In this document: one piece after another, positions 27,760 to 39,891 of the stretch
Position numbering within the stretch: position 1 is the stretch's first letter
Layout: each line of letters starts with the position of its first letter
From: Luteimonas fraxinea
Lineage (GTDB): Bacteria > Pseudomonadota > Gammaproteobacteria > Xanthomonadales > Xanthomonadaceae
Assembly (NCBI RefSeq): GCF_021233355.1
Contig: NZ_CP089507.1
Location: 930,001 to 994,000 of the forward strand
Length of the DNA stretch: 64,000 nucleotides
Reading direction: 5' to 3'
Program-made: the position numbers and the translations under genes
Notes under the pieces: generated by a model
The model's database searches: none
What the model saw: only the letters and a program-made list of their open reading frames with translations
What the model was told of the DNA's origin: nothing

Positions 27760-28227
27760 TCAGGCAGACAGCGCCTCGCGCACCGACTGTTCGATCAGGT
27801 CGATATCGGGAATCAGCGCGACGTCGTCGTTGAGGCGCACGCGGGCGCGTACCGCGAACGGGAGCGCATCGCCGTCGCCGTCGGATTCGTCGAGCAGATT
27901 CGCTTCGGAAATCGTCACCAGCCGCGGGAAACCTTCGGTCAGCAGCGCGAAGAACGGCAGGCGCGCATCGCCGCCCAGCGTCTTCAGCACGACAACCTTG
28001 CTGGCCAGTTCGGCGCGTTCGTCGCCCTGCTTCGACAGCACCGGAAAGGCGACCAGCGGCAGACGCCAGCCGCGCCAGCGTAGACGGCCCAACAGCCAGT
28101 CGGGTGCATTCGCCACCACTTCGGGCGGCGAGTAGGACAGCACCTCCGAAATCGTCGCATTGGGCAGCAGCAGCTGCGTCGCGCCGGCGCGGATCAGCAC
28201 ACCGCGGATTTCTTGATCTGCGCTCAC
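27760..28227 (-). CDS. chpC: CheW-like adaptor ChpC of the twitching chemosensory system
   Basis: This 155-residue CheW-domain protein would couple receptors to the ChpA kinase or modulate the system. The pattern is VLIRAGATQLLLPNATISEV, WRGWRLPLVAF, and the C-terminal IPDIDLIEQ. I start at GTG 28227, which overlaps the stop of the CheB-like gene (GTGA). It is the last gene of the pil-chp operon and in the position of P. aeruginosa chpC. Confidence 0.87.
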   Translation of the reverse strand: MSADQEIRGVLIRAGATQLLLPNATISEVLSYSPPEVVANAPDWLLGRLRWRGWRLPLVAFPVLSKQGDERAELASKVVVLKTLGGDARLPFFALLTEGFPRLVTISEANLLDESDGDGDALPFAVRARVRLNDDVALIPDIDLIEQSVREALSA

Positions 28228-29750
28228 AGCGACAACCCTCCGGAATCGAAACGGCGCGCGCTCGGCATCCAGCGCGCGATCAGCCAGTCGGCGATATCGG
28301 TCGGACTGCCCGACGGACCACCGCGCTGCGCGACCGCGCGCGCGGCGATCGGGTCGTAGCAGCCTTCTTCGCTCTGGCCGCCAACGAGTGCGCCCTGCCA
28401 CGCCGGGCCCATCGCCACGTCGACGAGCGACGGATCAGCGCCGCTGAGGAACAGCAATGCGCTGTCGTCGGCCGGCACCGCATCGGCGAGAGCGGTGATG
28501 TCGCCGGCTTCGGCGAAACGCAGTGCGCCACCGGCCGCGTTCGGCATCAGATCCGGCGGCAGGAAATAGACCTCGCCAGGCGAGACGGTCATGCCCGCTT
28601 CGGCCAGCTGCACCGGCATCGCGGTCGCGCGTTCCATCTGCCGCACGAGCCGGTCGTAACGACCGCCATCGAGTTGCAGCCGCACCAGTACCGGACGCGG
28701 AAAGCCTTCGGGCAATGCACCCAGCAACTGGCGCACCGCGTCGGGGCCGCCCAGACCGCCTTCGATCAGCACGACGCCCTTGACCGGTCCGTTACCGTAG
28801 CTGTCGGTATCGGTGAGGCTCAACCCGGAAATGCGTGATTCCAGATCGGACAGATCGCGCTGCAGCGTCTTGGCCGGCGTGACTGCAGCGGGCGCGTCGT
28901 CTTCAACCGGCGCCGCAGCGCGGAAGGACGGCAACGCATCGCCATCGAGCAGCGTCAACGGTTCGGATGTCGACTCGACGGCCGGTACGGGTGCGGGCTC
29001 TACGGGCGCATCGATCGATGCATCGGCCTCGATCGCATCCGCGACCGGCGGCTCGACCGGCGCGGTCGACTCATCCGACCACGCGGCCAGATTCTCGTTG
29101 AGATCGCGCACTTCGCCCGGCGGCGCAGCCGGCGGGATGTAGCTGCTCTCGTCGTATTCGGCGAGTTCGAAATCGAAACTGAACTCCACAGCAGGCGTCT
29201 GCACGCTCGGCGGTGCGTCGAACTCGGCCGCGACCGGATCGAATGCGAGATGCGTCCCATCGTCGGATGTCGATTCCGGTGTGATCGGCCTTTCGATTTC
29301 CGGCGCCGTTGGCGCTTCCGAAGCAACGAACGCCGCAGCTTCCGTGTGCGCATCGAACTCCAGCGTCAGCGGGGACCCCTCGTCCGGCGTATCGTTGTAC
29401 GCCGATGGCGGCAGCACATCGCCGACACCCCGCAGCTTCGCGGCAAGATGACGGACCCAGCGCGCGGCATCCCAGCCGGTGCGCTCGAGCACCAGCGCGG
29501 CTTCTTCGAAGATCACCGTGCGGCCGGGCGCGGCGAAGGCCGGCTCGAAGGCTTCGAGTGCGTCCTCGTCGACGGGATCGAGCACCACCACCAGTACCGA
29601 CGGCGCCAGCGCTTCGAGTGCTTCCGGCGCGTGCTGCGAGGGATCGAGCGTCGCGACCAGTTCGGCGCCGGCTTCGGTCAGGCCTTCGACCACGCGATCA
29701 CACGCGGCACCTGCGCGCGCCAGCACCACGGTGCGGATCGCGTCAGTCAT
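28224..29750 (-). CDS. Degenerate CheB-like protein (ChpB position), predicted catalytically inactive
   Basis: This 508-residue protein occupies the place of chpB, the receptor methylesterase gene. The N-terminal 100 residues resemble a receiver domain that has lost the acidic pair (LARAG in place of a VDD-type motif). A long acidic, Pro/Ala-rich linker follows (about 115-310), then a CheB-like C-terminal domain (VKGVVLIEGGLGG onward). Aligned with E. coli CheB, the catalytic Ser is G332 (IEGGLGG for IGASTGG), His is Q359 (VRLQLDGG for TQHMPPGF) and Asp is S441 (LSGADPSL for LTGMGNDG). It therefore probably acts as a binding partner rather than an enzyme. It overlaps chpA (8 bp) and chpC. Confidence 0.8.
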   Translation of the reverse strand: MTDAIRTVVLARAGAACDRVVEGLTEAGAELVATLDPSQHAPEALEALAPSVLVVVLDPVDEDALEAFEPAFAAPGRTVIFEEAALVLERTGWDAARWVRHLAAKLRGVGDVLPPSAYNDTPDEGSPLTLEFDAHTEAAAFVASEAPTAPEIERPITPESTSDDGTHLAFDPVAAEFDAPPSVQTPAVEFSFDFELAEYDESSYIPPAAPPGEVRDLNENLAAWSDESTAPVEPPVADAIEADASIDAPVEPAPVPAVESTSEPLTLLDGDALPSFRAAAPVEDDAPAAVTPAKTLQRDLSDLESRISGLSLTDTDSYGNGPVKGVVLIEGGLGGPDAVRQLLGALPEGFPRPVLVRLQLDGGRYDRLVRQMERATAMPVQLAEAGMTVSPGEVYFLPPDLMPNAAGGALRFAEAGDITALADAVPADDSALLFLSGADPSLVDVAMGPAWQGALVGGQSEEGCYDPIAARAVAQRGGPSGSPTDIADWLIARWMPSARRFDSGGLSL

Positions 29751-32700
29751 CGTCGCGCTCCAGCTTCAGCAGTTCGTAGACATGGCGCAGCAACTCGGGC
29801 TCCTGGTAGGGCTTGCCGAGATAGCGGTCGACGCCGATCTCGAACGCGCGCTGGCGATGTTTCTCGCCGGTACGCGAAGTGATCATCATGATGTGCACGT
29901 CGCGCAGACGCGGATCGGCCTTCATCTGCGTCGCGAGTTCGTAGCCGTCCATGCGCGGCATCTCGATGTCGAGCAGCATCAGATCGGGCACGCGCTCGTC
30001 CATGCGCTCCAGCGCATCAAGGCCGTCCTTCGCGGCCACGACCTCGAAGTTGTGGCGCTCCAGCACGCGGCCGGTGACCTTGCGCATCGTCACCGAATCA
30101 TCGACGACCATCACCAGCGGCACCGCGCGACGTTCGACCGCAGGCTCCGCTGTCTGCACGGGCGCATCGATCTGTGCGGCTTGGTTGCCGTGGCGACGCA
30201 CCAGCGGTGCGATGTCGAGAATCACGACCACGCGGCCGTCGCCCATGATCGTCGCGCCGAAGATGCCCGGGATCGAGGTGATCTGCGGACCCACCGGCTT
30301 CACCACGATTTCCTTGTTGCCGACGATCTCATCGACCGCTACCGCCGCGCGCAGTTCACCGGCGCGGATCAGCAGCAAGGGCATCTGCAACTGGCCTTCC
30401 GCACGCGCCGAAGGCTGACCGACGAGGCGACCGAGGTCGTACAGCGGATAGTCCTCGCCGCCGTAGCGATAGATCGCGCCGGGCTTCGCTTCGGTGCGGG
30501 CGATACGACCGACGCCGCGCACCGATGCGATCGGCACCGCGAAGCTGGTTTCGCCGATGCGCACGAACGCGGCCTGGGTGACGGCCAGCGTCTGCGGCAG
30601 GCGCAGCGTGAACGTGGTGCCCGCGCCATCGCGCGAGCGGATATCGAAGGTGCCGCCGAGCTGGCGGACTTCGCTGGCGACGACGTCCATGCCGACGCCG
30701 CGACCGGCCAGACGGCTCACTTCGGTCGCGGTCGAGAAGCCCGGCTGCAGGATCAACGCGTCGAGATCGACATCGGCGACGTCGGCGCTCGCCTGCAGCA
30801 GGCCGCGTTCCTCGGCGCGCCGGCGGATCGCGGCGCGGTCGAGACCGGCGCCGTCGTCGCCGACTTCCAGCACCACTTCCGAGCCCTCGCGGCGGACGGC
30901 GATATGGACGCTGCCCTCGTCGGCCTTGCCGGCGCTGCGACGTGCGTCGGGCGCCTCCAGTCCATGCGCGACCGCGTTGCGCAGCATGTGTTCCAGCGGC
31001 GAGACCATGCGTTCGAGCACGTTGCGATCCAGCTCGCCCTGCGTGCCTTCGAGGCGCAGCTGCACCTGCTTGCCGGTGTCCTGCGCGGCCTGGCGGACCA
31101 CACGACGCAGTCGCGGCACGAGGCCGTCGAACGGCACCATGCGCGTGCGCATCAGGCCTTCCTGCAGATCCGAACTCACCCGCGACTGCTGGGTCAGCAG
31201 CGTCTCGTACTGGCGGGTCTGGTCTTCGAGCATCTGCTGCAGGCTGCCGAAGTCGGACGCGGTCTCGCTGAGACCACGCGAGAGCTGTTGCAGCGTCGAG
31301 AACCGGTCGAGTTCCAGCGGATCGAAGGTGGTATCGGTGTCCTCGCCTTCGCGCTGGTAGCGCGCGACAATCTGCGCTTCGGTCTCGCTGTCGAGGCGGC
31401 GCAGCTGATCACGCAGACGCGTATTGGTCTGCGCGAGTTCGTTCATCGCACCGCGGAACGCACCGAGCTGCTGCTCCAGACGCGCGCGATAGATCGCGAC
31501 CTCGCCGGCGTAGGTGACCAGCTTGTCGAGCAGGTCGGCGCGGATGCGCACCTGCTCCTGCGAGCCGCGCAGCGCGTTCTCTTCATCCTCGGCGGTGCCG
31601 CTGTCGAGCGGCAACGGCGCAGACAGCGGCGCGAGTTCGACCTTCGGTGCCTCGTCGGCGGGCGTCGGAGACGCGGCCTGCGATTCGCTCGGGCGCTTGC
31701 CACTGAACGCATCGACCAGCGCCTGCGACGGGCCGATCGCACGGCGGTCGCCAGCGCGGGTCACCATCGTGTGCAGACGGTCGAAACCGCGTTCGAGCAG
31801 CGTCACGTCGCCACGGCGCAGCGTGCGCCGACGCTCGGCCACGGATTCGAGCAGGGTCTCCATCGCATGACCCAGCTCGCCGATCTCCATCAGGCCGGCC
31901 ATGCGCGCGCCGCCCTTGAGTGTGTGCAGATCACGCTGCAGACCGGCCACCGCGTCGCGGTTGTCGGGCGCGACACGCAACTGCGCCAGCAGCGCGTCGG
32001 AATGGTCGAGCAGGTCGATCCCTTCCTCGACAAAGATGTCGATCAGTTCCGGATCGAGACCGTCGAGCGCAAGCGCGGCATCGGGGTCGTCTTCGTTGGC
32101 TGGCAGATCGTCAGCGGCTGCGGGGGCGGCGGCATCGGCCGGGGCCTCGGTTTCGGTGTTATTTGCCGACGCTTCGGTAGTGTCCGTCGATACTTCGGTC
32201 TCGTCGTCGATCGAATCGACTGGCGCGGCTTCGAGGTCGGAAGGTGGCGCGGCTGCGACGTCGTCGACTTCAGGGTCGACGGTCGACGCATCCGCTTCGA
32301 TGTCCGCCGCGGGCTCTGTGGTTTCGACGGCTTCCGCGTCGGCGTTGTCCGGCGAATCTGCCGTTGCATCCGCAGCCTCATCGACATCGATGATGTCAAA
32401 CACCAGCGCATCATCGGCAACATCCGCCGATCCGATCTCCGGCGACGTCGCGACGTCCTCGCTCGATGACGTTTCGACATCGGACGCCGCGTCGACGATC
32501 CCGACTGCATCGATGTCGTCTGCAGCAACGTCGAGGGATTCCATCACGGTCGGCGCGCTTGCCTCCGCGGCTGCCGACTCGGCATCACGCAGACGACGTG
32601 CGGTTTCGTCCTGATCGAAGCGGGCACGCTCGGCGACCAGCACACTGGCGTCGATGTGGGCCTGACGGCGCAACTTCTCGAACGCTTCGATCGCGATCCG

Positions 32701-35700
32701 CGCGGCATCCGCCTGGCGCGCGTCTTCGACTTCGACGTCTTCCACCGCGGTCTCACCCGCCGCCGCAGCAATCTCGGCCGCCTCTGCAGCCTGCTCGGCC
32801 GCCAGACGTTCCTGTACCTGCTGCTCGGCTGCGGCGCGTTCCGCTTCGACGCGTTCCGCGTCCGCCCGTTCGATCTCGAGGCGCGCGAGCGCGGCCCGCT
32901 CGGCTTCGTCCTGCGCAGCACGCTCGGCGGCGAGCCGCTCTGCTTGCAGCCGCTCGGACTCGACACGCTCGGCGTCGAGTCGTGCGGCTTCCGCCTGCTC
33001 GGCTTCTTCCTGAGCGGCGCGCTCGGCGGCGAGACGCTCCTCTTCCGCGCGCTCGTTCTCGAGACGCTCGGCTTCGATCCGGGCCGCTTCCGCCTGTTCC
33101 GCTTCTGCCTGTGCGACACGCTCGGCAAGGAGGCGTTCCTGCTCCAGACGCTCGGTCTCGACACGCTCGGCGTCGAGGCGCGCCGCTTCGGTCTGTTCGG
33201 CTTCGGCTTGCGCGAGACGCGCGGCGTCGAGACGATCCTGTTCCAGACGCTCGCGTTCGACGCGTTCCGATTCGAGGCGCTCGGCTTCTGCAAGCGCGAG
33301 AAGTTCTGCATCCAAGCGTTCCTGTTCGAGACGCTCGGCCTCGACACGCTCGCTCTCTGCACGCTCGGCTTCGAGCCGCTCGGCTTCCGCCTGCGCAGCG
33401 CGCTCGGCCTCGAGACGCTCGGAGTCCGGCTGCACCTGCCCGGCCTCATCGTCTTCGTCGAGTGCGATCGACGTCGAATCGGACAGATCGTCAAGCGCAT
33501 CGATGTCGTCGGGCAGATCGAATTTGAACCGTTCGACCGGTGCTTCGGGCAGGCGATCGCGCAATGCGCCGACCTGGTCGGCCAACGCGGTCAGTACCGC
33601 GATACGCGGCTCCGGCTCATGCAACTGGCGCAGCGCCTCGCGGGCGGCGACGCAGACCGCGTCGAGCACAGGCGTGACATCGGCCTCCGGCGCAGTGCCG
33701 GCGGCGACCAGACGGCGTGCGTATTCCTCTGCGGGACCGAGCAGCAGGCCAATCGCCGGCACTTCGGCCATCGCGAACGCGCCGTGCATGGTGTGCAGCG
33801 CGCGCAGCAGGCGCTCGCCATCGGCAGGCACGCCGGCATCGATCGCACCGAGCCAGTCGCCGACGGTCTGCAGATGGCCCTGCACTTCGTTGTCGAGAAT
33901 TTCGAGCAGCAGCGCGTCGACGGATGCGGGCACGGTCTCGATTTCGTCGGACGCGGCGGCTGGCGTTGGGTCCAGGATCTCGGGGGTCGCATCGTCGTCT
34001 GTCGCAACCGGGGCGACGTCGGATTCGACATCCACCGGCGCCGACACGTCTTCAACTTCGACTTCGACGGTGTCAGCAGCAACCGCGAGCGCCGCGGGCT
34101 GCACCGGCAAGGTGTCATCGCCGGCAGCGATGCGTGCCGCATTGGCCTGCATCGTGTCCAGATCGGCACGCAGCGTGGCTTCGCCGCGCAGCACCGCCTG
34201 CAGTTCGGGCAGCGTGTAGAACGCCTGGTCGACCATCTCGATCACGGCCGGCGTCGCCGGGCGACCATCAATCACGCGATTGAGCATGGTCTCGATCGAC
34301 CAGCTGAACTCGCCGAGCGCCTTTGCGCCAACGAGCCGGCCGCTGCCCTTGAGCGTGTGGAACACGCGCCGGATCGGCCGCACGAGTTCGATGTTGTCCG
34401 GCTGCGCGCGCCAAGGCGGCAGCAGGGCGTCGAGATTCTCGATCTCGCCGGCGAACTCCTCGAGGAACACTTCGCGGATTTCGTCGTCGATCTCGTCGCC
34501 GACGTCCTCGAAACCACCGGCGACATTACGCGCCGGCGCAGGCGTCGGCGCGAGCGATGCATCCACCGTGCCCGCGATTGCGGCAGGCGTCGGTTCGACC
34601 TCGGCCGCCGGTGGTTCCCACACCTCGATGCCGCGTGCGAACTGGTCGAGGTGGAAGCCGGCTGTCGCACTGTCGTCTTCGTCGAACGGACTGTCGTCGA
34701 CGACGGTCTCGTCGGAAACGCTCGCTTCCGGCAGCGGCCAGTAGCCCAGCGCTTCCAGCGAACTGCGCGCGATGTCGAGAATGTCGGCGCGGTTCGGGCG
34801 CTGCTCGCGCAGGGCTTCGAGGTAGTACTCCAGACTCGCCAGCGCATCGGCAAAAGTGTCGAGCTGGCGGCCATTGGGCACGCGCTGACGCGCGATCAGT
34901 TCGCGCTCGGCGTACAACCGCACGCCGGCCAGATAACTGACGGCCTGCGGCAGTTCCAGCATCGCCAGCGCACCGCCGACCTCGGCCAGCAGACGCGGGA
35001 CTTCCTGCAGCTCGGCGTGATCCCAGCTGGTTTCGACGAACGCGACCAGCGCCTGGCGCGCGTCGGAGAAATTGGCGATCGCCTCGCGGACCAGCACCGC
35101 CATCGACTGCTGCGCCTCGACGGCGAGCGTGTCGTCAGAGCCGTCGGTGACCTCGGCGCCGAGACGCGAGACCTGGTCGTCGAGCGTCGCGTCGACATAG
35201 AGCAGCGCCCCGGCGACATCGAGCAGCGTGTCTTCGCTGGCCGGCGTGGCGCCGCTGACGATGCCGCGCATCGTGTCGCGCTGCTGCTGCACCACGGTGC
35301 GCGCCGCACCCAGCCCCAGCATGCCGAGCGTGTCGGCGACGCCGGCCAGCACTTCGACCTGCGGTTGCAGGCCGGCGATGTCGGTCGAGCCGGTGCGCAG
35401 ATGCAGATCCAGCGCGTCCTTGACCCGCAGCAGGTCTTCCTTGACCGCGGCGGCAACCGTGCCGAGCAGCGCGCGGTTGCGGCCGCCGAGGCTGCCGCGT
35501 GCATGTTCGAGCTCCGCCTCGCTCGGCAGTTGCGCCTGCAGGTCGAAAGCCTCGCGCAACGCGTCGAGCGCGGGATGCGCGGCGTCGCTGTGGGCGACGT
35601 GATAGAGCAACTGGCGCGTCGGTTCCTGCGCGCCGTCGGCGAGCGTCGCGTCGAGGCGCGGGGCCTGCGCATACTGGCGCACTTCGCGTTCGACGCCGGC

Positions 35701-36408
35701 GAACACCTGGCGCAGCGTGGGATGCACGACCGGCGCGAACGCGCCATCGGCCAGTGCGTCGGCGACGCGCGAGGCGACCCACAACATGCGGCGCTGGGTT
35801 TCGGCGCCGGCCTGTGCGGCGAGTGCGGACAGGCCCGATACCAGTGCACCGGTATCGCCGGGGCTGCCGGTCGCCGGCCAGGCCTGCAGCGCGACACGCA
35901 ACTGGCGCAGTGCGGCGTCGGGATCGATGCCGGCGTCTTCGACCGGCGCGGTGTCGGGCAGCGCGCGCGCCAGATCCGGCGCGAACAGGATGCTTTCGCT
36001 CAGCCCGGTTTCGCCGCGCGCGGCGCGTAGCTCGTTAAGCAGCGGCAGCAGCACGATCGGGATATCGCGATGCCCGCCCTGCAGGCGTTCGAGGTAATCG
36101 GGCAGCAGCACCATGCCGCGCAGCAGCGCAGCCGAGGCGATGTCGCGGTCGGCGGTCGTATCGTCGCGCAGCGCATCGGCCAGCCGCTCCATTTCCTCGA
36201 CGACCATCGCCGGCGCGTACAGCTCGACCATGCGCAACGTGCCCTGCGCCTGGTGCAGATAGCCGGCGCACAGACGCATGCGGCCCGGATCGTCCGGCGC
36301 GTCGACGAAGCCTTCCAGTTCGATCCGCGCCTGGCGCAGCACTTCGTCCAGCTCCGGCTTGATCCAGCCGAGCATCGTGTGGTCGATGGCATCGCGCAGA
36401 CCGCTCAT
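29743..36408 (-). CDS. chpA: Giant hybrid chemosensory kinase ChpA (PilL-type)
   Basis: ChpA is the CheA-type kinase that controls type IV pilus motility and surface sensing, phosphorylating PilG and PilH. Its 2221 residues hold several histidine-phosphotransfer modules: a degenerate one at H52 (LHQAQGT), H684 in HTLKGSG, H872 in HTMHGAF and H1495 in HTLKGGA. A very charged Glu/Arg/Ala repeat lies at about 990-1225. After it come a dimerisation region, an HATPase (HMLRNAVAHGLE near 1812; GRGVGMDVV), a CheW-like domain (about 1940-2075) and a receiver domain with D2147. P. aeruginosa ChpA has a similar multi-Hpt design. The stop overlaps the CheB-like gene; a 19-codon reading frame overlaps its start. 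Confidence 0.95.
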   Translation of the reverse strand: MSGLRDAIDHTMLGWIKPELDEVLRQARIELEGFVDAPDDPGRMRLCAGYLHQAQGTLRMVELYAPAMVVEEMERLADALRDDTTADRDIASAALLRGMVLLPDYLERLQGGHRDIPIVLLPLLNELRAARGETGLSESILFAPDLARALPDTAPVEDAGIDPDAALRQLRVALQAWPATGSPGDTGALVSGLSALAAQAGAETQRRMLWVASRVADALADGAFAPVVHPTLRQVFAGVEREVRQYAQAPRLDATLADGAQEPTRQLLYHVAHSDAAHPALDALREAFDLQAQLPSEAELEHARGSLGGRNRALLGTVAAAVKEDLLRVKDALDLHLRTGSTDIAGLQPQVEVLAGVADTLGMLGLGAARTVVQQQRDTMRGIVSGATPASEDTLLDVAGALLYVDATLDDQVSRLGAEVTDGSDDTLAVEAQQSMAVLVREAIANFSDARQALVAFVETSWDHAELQEVPRLLAEVGGALAMLELPQAVSYLAGVRLYAERELIARQRVPNGRQLDTFADALASLEYYLEALREQRPNRADILDIARSSLEALGYWPLPEASVSDETVVDDSPFDEDDSATAGFHLDQFARGIEVWEPPAAEVEPTPAAIAGTVDASLAPTPAPARNVAGGFEDVGDEIDDEIREVFLEEFAGEIENLDALLPPWRAQPDNIELVRPIRRVFHTLKGSGRLVGAKALGEFSWSIETMLNRVIDGRPATPAVIEMVDQAFYTLPELQAVLRGEATLRADLDTMQANAARIAAGDDTLPVQPAALAVAADTVEVEVEDVSAPVDVESDVAPVATDDDATPEILDPTPAAASDEIETVPASVDALLLEILDNEVQGHLQTVGDWLGAIDAGVPADGERLLRALHTMHGAFAMAEVPAIGLLLGPAEEYARRLVAAGTAPEADVTPVLDAVCVAAREALRQLHEPEPRIAVLTALADQVGALRDRLPEAPVERFKFDLPDDIDALDDLSDSTSIALDEDDEAGQVQPDSERLEAERAAQAEAERLEAERAESERVEAERLEQERLDAELLALAEAERLESERVERERLEQDRLDAARLAQAEAEQTEAARLDAERVETERLEQERLLAERVAQAEAEQAEAARIEAERLENERAEEERLAAERAAQEEAEQAEAARLDAERVESERLQAERLAAERAAQDEAERAALARLEIERADAERVEAERAAAEQQVQERLAAEQAAEAAEIAAAAGETAVEDVEVEDARQADAARIAIEAFEKLRRQAHIDASVLVAERARFDQDETARRLRDAESAAAEASAPTVMESLDVAADDIDAVGIVDAASDVETSSSEDVATSPEIGSADVADDALVFDIIDVDEAADATADSPDNADAEAVETTEPAADIEADASTVDPEVDDVAAAPPSDLEAAPVDSIDDETEVSTDTTEASANNTETEAPADAAAPAAADDLPANEDDPDAALALDGLDPELIDIFVEEGIDLLDHSDALLAQLRVAPDNRDAVAGLQRDLHTLKGGARMAGLMEIGELGHAMETLLESVAERRRTLRRGDVTLLERGFDRLHTMVTRAGDRRAIGPSQALVDAFSGKRPSESQAASPTPADEAPKVELAPLSAPLPLDSGTAEDEENALRGSQEQVRIRADLLDKLVTYAGEVAIYRARLEQQLGAFRGAMNELAQTNTRLRDQLRRLDSETEAQIVARYQREGEDTDTTFDPLELDRFSTLQQLSRGLSETASDFGSLQQMLEDQTRQYETLLTQQSRVSSDLQEGLMRTRMVPFDGLVPRLRRVVRQAAQDTGKQVQLRLEGTQGELDRNVLERMVSPLEHMLRNAVAHGLEAPDARRSAGKADEGSVHIAVRREGSEVVLEVGDDGAGLDRAAIRRRAEERGLLQASADVADVDLDALILQPGFSTATEVSRLAGRGVGMDVVASEVRQLGGTFDIRSRDGAGTTFTLRLPQTLAVTQAAFVRIGETSFAVPIASVRGVGRIARTEAKPGAIYRYGGEDYPLYDLGRLVGQPSARAEGQLQMPLLLIRAGELRAAVAVDEIVGNKEIVVKPVGPQITSIPGIFGATIMGDGRVVVILDIAPLVRRHGNQAAQIDAPVQTAEPAVERRAVPLVMVVDDSVTMRKVTGRVLERHNFEVVAAKDGLDALERMDERVPDLMLLDIEMPRMDGYELATQMKADPRLRDVHIMMITSRTGEKHRQRAFEIGVDRYLGKPYQEPELLRHVYELLKLERDDD

Positions 36409-36481: not shown

Positions 36482-38503
36482 TCAGGCCGGCAGCTTGAAG
36501 TCGGCGACCGAGCGACGCAGGTCGGCGGCCAGCTGCGCCAGGTTGCCGATCGATGCCGCGGTCTGGTTCGCACCCTGCGAGGTCTGCTTGGTGATCGACT
36601 GGATCGTGTGCATGGCCGTGGTGATGTTGGTCGCGGCCGAGGACTGCTGGTGCGCGGCCGAGGAGATGCCCTGGATCAGGTCGGCGAGGCTGGTCGAGAC
36701 GCTTTCGATCTCGCCCAGCGCGGTGCCTGCGTCTTCGGCCAGGCGCGCACCGGCAACCACTTCGGAGGTCGTCTGTTCCATCGACGTCACCGCTTCGTTG
36801 GTGTCGGACTGGATCGTCTGCACCAGCGTTTCGATGCGGCGGGTCGCATTGGTCGCGCGTTCCGCGAGGCGCTGCACTTCGTCGGCCACGACCGCGAAAC
36901 CGCGGCCGGCTTCACCGGCAGAGGCCGCCTGGATCGCGGCGTTGAGCGCCAGGATGTTGGTCTGCTCGGAGATGTCGTTGATCAGTTCGACGATCGAGCC
37001 GATCTCCTGCGAGCTTTCGCCCAGCCGCTTGATGCGCTTCGAGGTTTCCTGGATCTGGTCGCGGATCGAGTCCATGCCGGCGATCGTCTCGCGCACCACG
37101 CCCGCACCCTTGGTCGCGATCTGCACCGAGCGCTGCGCCACGTCGGCCGATTCGGCCGAGTTCTTCGACACCTGGTCGATGCTGACCGCGATCTCGTTGA
37201 TCCGGTCCGACGCGGAGTTGATTTCCTGCTCCTGGTGCTCGGCCGCTTCGGCCAGATGCATCGCTGTGGCCTGGGTTTCCTGCGCGCTGGAGGCGACCTG
37301 CACCGAGGTGTCGTTGATCGTCTGCACGAGGCTGCGCAGCTGCTCGATCGCGAAGTTGATCGAGTCGGCGATCGCGCCGGTCATGTCCTCGGTAACCGTT
37401 GCCTTGACCGTCAGGTCGCCTTCGGCGAGCGAACCCATTTCGTCCAGCAGGCGCATGATCGCCTCCTGGTTGCGGTTGTTGAGTTCCATCGTGGTCTCGT
37501 AGCGTTCGCGCTGCGCGCGGTTCAGCGAGACGAGCAGACCGGCGATGGCGACCAGTGCGATCAGGCCGGCGACGATGCTGATCCAGATGTTGCCGAGGAT
37601 GCTGCGGTCGGTCAGCGAACCGAACGCGGTGAAAGCGTTGAACAGCGATTCGCTGTCGCTCAGCAGCTGATCGGAACCGGTCACCAGTGCGCCGGCCGCG
37701 GCCTGCGCCTGGAACAGCTGCTCGCTGCTGCCAAGGATGGCTTCGAGTTCGGCGCGCATCTGCGCCCAGGCCTCGTCGGCGCGGGTCAGCGCGGCGAGCG
37801 CATTGCCGTTCGTCAGTGCCTGCAGTTCGCGCGACGGGTCGCCTTCGCGCAGACCGGTCATGACCTGCTGGAAATCTTCCGCGTTGCGACGCAGCCCCTG
37901 GCCCGCGATCGCCGCGCCGGCGCCGCCGGACTGCACCTCGGTCACGCGGCGCGCCATGTCGCCGGCGATCACCACCTGGCGCAGCGCCATGTAGACCTGC
38001 GAGGACGGCGAGCCGCTGCTCGACATCGCACGCACCAGTTCGTCGAGCAGCGCCTGCAACTGCGGCACGCCCTGGCTGAAGCGCTGGGCCTGGCCGGCGA
38101 ATGCGGTCACTGCAGCTTCGCTGTCGGCGAGCCGCTGCGCGCTGGCGCCGAGCGGCGTCCAGGTTTCGGTGACCTTGGCGACCGCGCCGGAGACGCCCGG
38201 CGTGTCGCCATAGCTGGCGTTGAGCTGCTGGATGTCGCCGTCGATCTGCGCGCGCGTGGCCTTGAACGTGGCGAATGCCGCCGCGTTGCCGCGGACCGCG
38301 TCGCTGCCCTGGTTGGCCAGCCGCTGGCTGTCCACGCGCAGGTTCGAGGCCGAGGTACTGGCGCCGCCGAGGGCCGAGGCCTTCCACGTGCCGTAACCGG
38401 TGTTGAGGACCAGGATCGCACCGGCCACGACCAGCACCACGACCCAGAAGTTCGTGCCGAAGGTGCGACGTTTGATGGCGAGAGTATCGGCGGCTGTGCT
38501 CAT
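36482..38503 (-). CDS. pilJ: Type IV pilus methyl-accepting chemoreceptor PilJ
   Basis: PilJ is the membrane receptor of the Pil-Chp system. With start 38503 it has 673 residues: a cytoplasmic start ([12 protein letters not shown]), a first helix ([17 protein letters not shown]), a large periplasmic region, a second helix near residue 310 ([18 protein letters not shown]), a HAMP-like stretch and the MCP signalling hairpin ([17 protein letters not shown] near 540). PilJ senses pilin or pilus-related signals in Pseudomonas. It is 40 bp after pilI and 73 bp before chpA. The upstream-extended frame to 38626 lies in pilI and is not used. Confidence 0.95.
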
Positions 38504-38543: not shown

Positions 38544-39104
38544 TCAGGCCGCGGCGTGTCTGAATTCCGGGGTGCGACCGAGACGTTCGAGGCTGAAAAC
38601 GCCCCAGGTCGCGTTGGCATGCGCATACGCGCGCTCGACGAAGTGGCCGTAGCGGCCTTCGGCGATGCGGTCGGCCGAGACCTCGTCTTCCTCGAGGAAA
38701 CTGCGCTGGCCGAACAGTTCGTCGATCGTCAGCGCGACGTCGCCGCCGGGCTGGCGCACGATCAGCACGCGCTGGCTTTCCTGCAGAACCGTGCGCTCGC
38801 CTTCGAGGAACTGCTTGAGGTCGACGATCGGCAGCAGGCTGCCGCGGATGTTGGCGACACCGAGCACCCACGGCTGCGCGCCGGGCACCGGCGTCACCGG
38901 CGGCATCGGCAGGATCTCGATGACCTCGTCGAACGACGAGGCCAGCATGCGCCGGCCGATCCGGTAGCCGACGCCGCGCCACAGGCCGGGCGCGTCGAGC
39001 TGGTCGGGTAGACCGATGCGATGCGCCAGGCTGCGCCGCTCGTACTCGGCCAGAAGTGCGAACGCGCCCGTGGCGGGCGCGTCGATGGATTGCGTGGTGG
39101 ACAT
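38544..39104 (-). CDS. pilI: CheW-like coupling protein PilI
   Basis: PilI bridges PilJ and ChpA. The 186-residue CheW domain is complete: [38 protein letters not shown] and [17 protein letters not shown] 39104 overlaps the pilH stop by one base. This matches the P. aeruginosa order pilG-pilH-pilI-pilJ. Confidence 0.93.
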
Positions 39105-39469
39105 CAGCTCGCCAGAACCGCGTTGACCTGACTGATCAGCGCGTCCTCGGTCGGCGGCTTGACGATGTAGCCCTTCGCGCCCTGGCGCATGCCCCACATC
39201 TTGTCCGTTTCCATGCCCTTGGTGCTGATGATGATGACCGGGATGCCGGATGTTTCGGCGTCCTTGGCCAGCGCACGCGTGGCCTGGAAGCCACTCATGC
39301 CCGGCAGCACCACGTCCATCAGCACGAGGTCGGGGCGCTCGCGCTTGCACGCGACGATGCCGTCCTCGGCGTTGCCCGATGCGGTGACCTCATGCCCGTG
39401 CCGTTCCAGCCACTGCGTCAGCACCGCGGTATCGGTCGGCGAATCCTCGATCAACAGGATGCGTGCCAT
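39104..39469 (-). CDS. pilH: Single-domain response regulator PilH
   Basis: PilH is a CheY-like receiver of 121 residues that works with PilG to balance pilus extension and retraction; in Pseudomonas it may act as a phosphate sink. Acidic E8-D9, phospho-acceptor D52 in LVLMDVVLPGMSG and K104 in YIVKPPTED are all present. It lies 17 bp downstream of pilG and overlaps pilI by one base. Confidence 0.94.
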   Translation of the reverse strand: MARILLIEDSPTDTAVLTQWLERHGHEVTASGNAEDGIVACKRERPDLVLMDVVLPGMSGFQATRALAKDAETSGIPVIIISTKGMETDKMWGMRQGAKGYIVKPPTEDALISQVNAVLAS

Positions 39470-39486: not shown

Positions 39487-39891
39487 TCAGGCGGTGACGT
39501 GCGTACGGATCGCGTCGAGGAGTTCCTCGCGCGTGAATGGTTTGGTGACGTATTGCTCGGAGCCGACGATGCGGCCGCGCGCCTTGTCGAACAGGCCGTC
39601 CTTGGACGACAGCATGATCACCGGCGTATTGCGGAACACCTGGTTGTTCTTGATCAGCGCGCAGGTCTGATACCCGTCCAGCCTCGGCATCATGATGTCG
39701 ACGAAGATGATCTGCGGCTTCTGGTCGGCGATCTTGGCGAGCGCCTCGAATCCGTCGACGGCGGTGACGACCTCGGCCCCTTCGCGACGCAGCAGCGTCT
39801 CGGCGGTGCGCCGGATGGTCTTCGAGTCGTCGATCACCATCACCCGCAAGCCATCGAGGCTGCCGGAGGACGGCTTGTCGTCACTGGTCAT
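39487..39891 (-). CDS. pilG: Single-domain response regulator PilG
   Basis: PilG is the CheY-like output of the Pil-Chp pathway, promoting pilus extension and, in Pseudomonas, cAMP production. The 134-residue product starts at ATG 39891 behind a GGGAGA Shine-Dalgarno and has D21-D22, D65 in IIFVDIMMPRLDG and K117 in YVTKPFT. Much longer open frame upstream of the ATG is antisense to gshB and is not coding. A good promoter lies about 50-80 bp upstream; pilG heads the operon. Confidence 0.95.
   Translation of the reverse strand: MTSDDKPSSGSLDGLRVMVIDDSKTIRRTAETLLRREGAEVVTAVDGFEALAKIADQKPQIIFVDIMMPRLDGYQTCALIKNNQVFRNTPVIMLSSKDGLFDKARGRIVGSEQYVTKPFTREELLDAIRTHVTA

Follow-up and report, generated by a model that had tools for sequence, protein, structure and literature searches.

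The Pil-Chp cluster of Luteimonas fraxinea encodes a ChpB protein in which all three catalytic residues of the CheB methylesterases have been replaced, in a locus that carries no pilK methyltransferase gene. It is quite probable that this ChpB orthologue has turned into a pseudo-methylesterase, and that it now serves the PilJ-ChpA array as a non-catalytic subunit. Comparison with relatives indicates an ordered collapse of a chemotaxis adaptation module, with the methyltransferase disappearing first, the esterase triad later, and the esterase protein itself being kept.

The window, meaning the whole stretch of 64,000 nucleotides that was analysed, belongs to a genome made of one contig of 4.0 Mb. 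The chpB frame was confirmed as an open reading frame at 28224..29750 on the minus strand, as are all features described below for the window, and encodes 508 amino acids. Its start overlaps the stop of chpA (29743..36408), also called pilL, which codes for a hybrid kinase of 2221 amino acids with four Hpt stretches and ATPase, CheW and receiver domains; its stop overlaps the start, a GTG, of chpC (27760..28227), whose product is CheW-like. The cluster continues upstream of chpB and chpA with pilJ (36482..38503; 673 amino acids if begun at the likely Met, with an ATG of the frame already at 38626), one CheW-like protein, pilI (38544..39104, approximate start), and two single-domain response regulators named by position, pilH-like (39104..39469) and pilG-like (39487..39876, approximate start). 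The placement of the gene between chpA and the CheW-like chpC, downstream of pilJ, is that of a ChpB orthologue, and among the matches listed the closest database proteins bearing names come from Luteimonas. The locus is a Pil-Chp cluster without pilK, as first read from the DNA letters: the pilJ and chpA open frames lie 47 bases apart, with no CheR between them. As a separate observation, about 260 residues of ChpA (about 996-1255; 32644-33423) are enriched in Ala, Glu, Arg and Leu, at 28% A, 26% E, 15% R and 9% L with no K. They probably form a long charged helix, and their coding DNA consists of degenerate tandem repeats with periods of 99 and 84.

ChpB shares its two-domain architecture with triad-bearing ChpBs. 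An N-terminal receiver-like domain (residues 1-108; 29427..29750) is followed by an acidic linker (residues about 111-320, or 111-322; 28791..29420), modelled with low confidence, and by a C-terminal domain (residues about 321-495; 28266..28790) with a CheB fold in the predicted structure, although the PF01339 match spans only positions 1-74 of 174. The difference from the CheB methylesterase/deamidase family (PF01339; solved structures 1chd, 1a2o, 3sft and 6ymz) lies in the catalytic residues. The original prediction had placed G332 (28755..28757), Q359 (28674..28676) and S441 (28428..28430) at the Ser, His and Asp positions, and both the residues and their alignment columns were confirmed. 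All three paired with the triad in MAFFT alignments with two CheB domains of this genome that do have it, and all three columns were likewise paired by hhalign, comparing five host-family (Xanthomonadaceae) domains, including that of the window, with seven triad-bearing ChpBs. The Ser and His columns were also aligned by phmmer against 3sft and 1chd, in a match that ends before the Asp column, as does a separate profile match. A Ser-His-Asp triad located elsewhere in the domain, the finding that the original prediction had named as speaking against it, does not occur, since the C-terminal domain contains no His. These comparisons support the view that ChpB would here be devoid of methylesterase catalysis, its triad being gone.

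Two further features had been put forward together with the triad, namely a receiver part without its acidic pair and a long acidic linker. The acidic pair after strand 1 is indeed absent, but it does not work as a sign of loss, since triad-bearing ChpBs are nearly all the same: two acids at positions 11-13 were found in 0/34 triad-bearing ChpBs with pilK, and an adjacent acidic pair nearby in 1/34. A degenerate receiver was consequently rejected as a mark of decay. The N domain has a receiver-like fold and a GWDxxRWxRHLAxKL motif, with the acidic pair in 0/40 host-family rows and, at position 58 (end of strand 3), D in 20 of the 40 rows and E in the other 20; it does not present the acidic pocket plus phosphorylatable Asp of a receiver. 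The missing pair in triad-bearing rows is in line with PMC12632253, according to which the P. aeruginosa ChpB is not believed to undergo phosphorylation. Unexpectedly, 8 of the 16 rows taken from other families of the order do carry such a pair behind strand 1 (for instance LFDDA), examples among order-level N domains without pilK being those of loci L082 and L087. Concerning the linker, residues 111-322 count 45 D/E versus 6 K/R, so that its acidic nature holds for the window ChpB; as a special feature it was rejected, because linkers of pilK-bearing ChpBs can be long and as acidic. The median net acidic fraction was 0.147 in 39 host-family rows versus 0.127 in the 14 pilK-bearing rows that have a linker over 60 residues; the negative minimum in pilK-bearing rows comes from rows that are short or misaligned and is an artefact. 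Host-family linkers vary from 36 to 371 residues, and one host-family ChpB of only about 328 residues (L070:12510-13493), with a linker of about 36, indicates that a long acidic linker is dispensable.

A ChpB match was obtained in 116 of 119 sampled host-family genomes; in two (G012 and G034), matches to ChpB, PilK-like proteins and CheR are all absent, which possibly represents the next step, the loss of both genes. Forty host-family clusters, mostly one per genus, were fetched (30 picked from the ChpB match list and 10 by chpA), making 41 with the window. Gly occupies the Ser position in 40 of these 41, none of the 40 having a full triad. The absence of pilK was seen in 36 of the 40 Gly-bearing clusters, the contig ending before pilJ in the other 4, and the triad is lost in all 36 clusters seen to lack pilK. 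The remaining cluster (L076) has both pilK and S-H-D. The picks had followed match strength and had missed 11 genomes resembling that of L076. These emerged when the L076 proteins were compared with 30 host-family genomes, selected mainly because their ChpB match was weak or missing: an L076-like ChpB domain plus an L076-like PilK were found in 12 of the 30 (the genome of L076 among them), distributed over 7 genera. In the 11 genomes other than that of L076, identities are 63-73% for the ChpB domain and 71-81% for PilK; in 8 of them the two share a contig at a distance of 7.9-9.5 kb, in 3 they are on separate contigs, and S-H-D was read in all 11. The catalytic loss covers, therefore, most of the host family but not all of it.

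The same picture was given by 80 loci with database titles, some of them from the same genomes as the fetched clusters and belonging to Lysobacter, Luteimonas, Pseudoxanthomonas, Stenotrophomonas, Xanthomonas, Vulcaniibacterium and other genera. Gly stands at the Ser position in 80/80, CheR in the flank was found in 0/80, and pilJ was seen in 68. The titled Xanthomonas and Lysobacter loci, two of the genera whose chpB-position proteins had been named for comparison in the original prediction, all have this Gly. Among listed homologues (the best 120 of 1644 plus the best 120 of 1770), Gly was present in 240/240 and the full triad in 0/240. Xylella ChpB falls outside these samples, being neither among the 80 named loci nor among the best 120 of 1770, and is expected to be of the same triad-less type.

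The relation between triad and pilK was followed over 140 fetched stretches (40 from the host family, 60 of 143 order-level and 40 of 128 class-level genomes with a chpA match). Together with the window they gave 141 clusters, of which 34 have pilK, all of these with chpB, 56 have chpB alone and 51 have neither gene; the latter show, as a rule, a CheW gene right after chpA (for example L104, L106 and L108). Across the 86 assessable clusters with chpB, the triad is present in 35/35 pilK-bearing versus 4/51 pilK-less clusters, or 46/46 versus 4/51 when the 11 further L076-kind genomes are added. This count leaves out L043, L062, L065 and L066, all four with Gly and with a contig that ends before pilJ; it takes L094 as pilK-bearing, as its contig is cut and pilJ-pilK lie on another contig of the same genome, and L151 as having the triad, since its YHD reading results from a broken frame with the Ser motif in the adjacent frame. 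The four pilK-less clusters keeping the full triad (L079, L089, L091 and L095) look intermediate, which suggests that pilK was lost first. All four count against the scenario proposed below, and in the genomes of L079 and L091 (G217 and G145) a CheR match is absent anywhere.

A ChpA tree built by a quick method places L076 as sister to the remaining 40 host-family members (support 96) and L084, which has pilK and triad, inside group f12 beside L079. The PilK proteins of L076 and L084 form one branch with those of group f3 (support 98), meaning that pilK is probably ancestral; as this tree took in 3 of 14 non-cluster CheRs, it says little about other CheRs. Parsimony over 85 rows required pilK to change 4 times and the triad 3 times. 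Among clusters that lack pilK and belong outside the host family, A, T, E or S occupies the Ser position, indicating that those losses were separate from the one that left Gly in the host family. The strength of the association must be read knowing that 36 of the 51 pilK-less clusters form one clade, and that the independent contrasts amount to 3 pairs on starred branches, with a sign test that is not significant; a Fisher p value was set aside because it takes no account of relatedness.

In the proposed scenario, pilK would have been lost first, an order supported by the comparison above, rendering the hydrolysis of receptor methyl esters useless, after which the triad would have been lost. 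The CheB fold, kept according to prediction, would have seen its former active-site loops become a new surface, in agreement with the strong conservation described below. The receiver-like N and CheB-like C domains may each bind an array or polarity partner, the most plausible array partner of the C domain being PilJ, contacted through the old substrate face, while the flexible acidic linker would join the two binding domains. Bound in this way, ChpB would sustain the activity or polarity of the pili in a system that does not adapt by methylation.

PilJ was the only MCP matched in a search of the genome. Three methylation pairs predicted for P. aeruginosa PilJ in PMC10896506 were transferred by spacing, that sequence being outside the alignment; on this basis the window PilJ retains pairs 1 and 2 as predicted methyl-accepting sites and lacks the third, reading Q635/S636 there (36596..36601). 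For pairs 1, 2 and 3, respectively, E/Q residues are found in 35/36, 36/36 and 10/36 of pilK-less host-family PilJ, compared with 32/34, 33/34 and 33/34 in pilK-bearing clusters and 15/15, 13/15 and 14/15 in other pilK-less clusters with chpB. The rows with neither pilK nor chpB gave 22/48, 24/48 and 12/48, a contrast that is confounded by greater divergence and includes one cut contig (L133). Pil-Chp clusters of this last type (order groups f2, f7 and f9, and 23/40 class clusters) resemble that of the window in having no methyltransferase beside pilJ, and differ in that chpB is also missing and the PilJ pairs are eroded. Pairs 1 and 2 were perhaps retained for packing, or as a ChpB docking site. 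Their conservation where ChpB stays, and erosion where both genes are gone, gave rise to a more specific and tentative idea, with perhaps a modest chance of being right, in which ChpB acts as a non-hydrolysing clamp whose rebuilt active-site face grips the methylation helices of PilJ and fixes its signalling state, with no methylation memory. If so, most of the host family would steer its pili with a chemosensory array without such memory.

The array-subunit reading presupposes that the C domain still has a function. An unlikely alternative is that chpB is a relic, carried along after pilK loss by operon translational coupling, with a functionless C domain. The overlaps of chpB with chpA and chpC fit such a scenario, as do 16 domains taken from other families of the order (L094 and 15 without pilK), in which the former invariants Q371 and S436 dropped from 100% to 43% and from 100% to at most 50%, respectively. 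In the host family, however, ChpB has persisted, as foreseen, under purifying selection: the median dN/dS is 0.13 for the C domain, near the 0.117 of the N domain (22 close host-family pairs each), and 0.316 for the linker (21 pairs). Catalysis lost while purifying selection acts on the fold is the pattern of a pseudoenzyme kept by selection. Also against the relic scenario stand the persistence of ChpB in nearly all host-family genomes and the appearance of new near-invariant residues. In the 40 host-family domains, D337, R340, L360 and G477 are at 100% and D466 at 95%, while in 34 pilK-bearing domains the most frequent residue at positions D337, R340 and D466 reaches 41-44%; taken together, D337, R340, L360, G362, R374, D466, R493 and W494 are constant in 87-100% of the host-family domains versus 14-58% for the commonest letter in the pilK-bearing ones, a conservation that partly reflects shared descent because the host family is younger than the pilK-bearing set. 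In addition, a Y-x-P-S-I-D segment that is well conserved in pilK-bearing domains is deleted in host-family ChpB. With new near-invariants here and relaxed invariants elsewhere, the host family seems to have refitted the domain that others are eroding. Finally, PMC9956873 reports that deletion of chpB in Xylella reduced twitching and left competence unchanged. This phenotype is the one direct hint of a structural or regulatory partner role; the persistence behind that earlier suggestion is well founded, and the role itself continues to be an inference.

A little less probable still is that PilJ continues to be methylated by another methyltransferase, ChpB having lost only its demethylation role. 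The genome search for a CheR-type methyltransferase, which had been pointed out as a check on the prediction, found a single CheR domain, in a CheB-CheR-PAS fusion encoded outside the window, and the near-complete retention of E/Q in PilJ pairs 1 and 2 of pilK-less host-family members would agree with ongoing methylation. Against this stand the distance of about 0.75 Mb between the fusion and chpB, the presence of a CheB domain in the fusion itself and of a separate CheB beside it on the opposite strand, both with Ser-His-Asp (C1:1710289-1712388; L001-L003), and the loss of the third pair in most pilK-less host-family PilJ. Furthermore, a CheR match is absent in 38 of 119 host-family genomes, 36 of which still match ChpB. 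The initial statement that receptor methylation has been lost is likely, and is tempered by the two pairs kept and the one CheR domain encoded; on the CheR and PilJ-pair evidence, loss of PilJ methylation in this lineage is probable. It is very improbable that the ChpB domain has retained enzymatic activity through a different set of residues, such as the invariant Cys464 (40/40 host-family domains) or the new polar near-invariants, for instance Asp or Arg, since 7 of the 40 host-family domains, including that of the window, have no His, and Cys464, also at 91% in the 34 pilK-bearing domains, is not new.

The non-catalytic array subunit proposed here has its nearest described counterpart in P. 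aeruginosa ChpB, with which the comparison was made through descriptions and triad-bearing relatives instead of the sequence of that species. The gene likewise lies between chpA and chpC and encodes a receiver-like N domain and a CheB-fold C domain, and the triad-bearing relatives mostly have no acidic pair either; the window ChpB differs by the missing triad, the missing pilK and, relative to most pilK-bearing domains, the deleted segment mentioned above. PMC10896506 describes P. aeruginosa chpB mutants as keeping twitching and losing direction. The absence of pilK had already been noted in Lysobacter capsici (PMC4960238), while the Xcc operon is said to include pilK in PMC7698356, contrary to the 5 Xanthomonas loci seen here, which have no CheR in the flank. 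In the literature searched, consisting mostly of listings and abstracts, no published account of a comparably inactive CheB or ChpB was found, and the dead triad of ChpB, as opposed to the absence of pilK, is apparently undescribed. The genera concerned are Xanthomonas, Stenotrophomonas, Lysobacter, Luteimonas and the like, in which twitching is predicted to proceed without receptor methylation, and the triad-less ChpB would offer a natural system for studying CheB functions besides hydrolysis.

Some database records title the ChpB of these genera "protein-glutamate methylesterase". One Stenotrophomonas-like ChpB (P0199) is filed under Bacillus subtilis, the record being probably mislabelled or contaminated.
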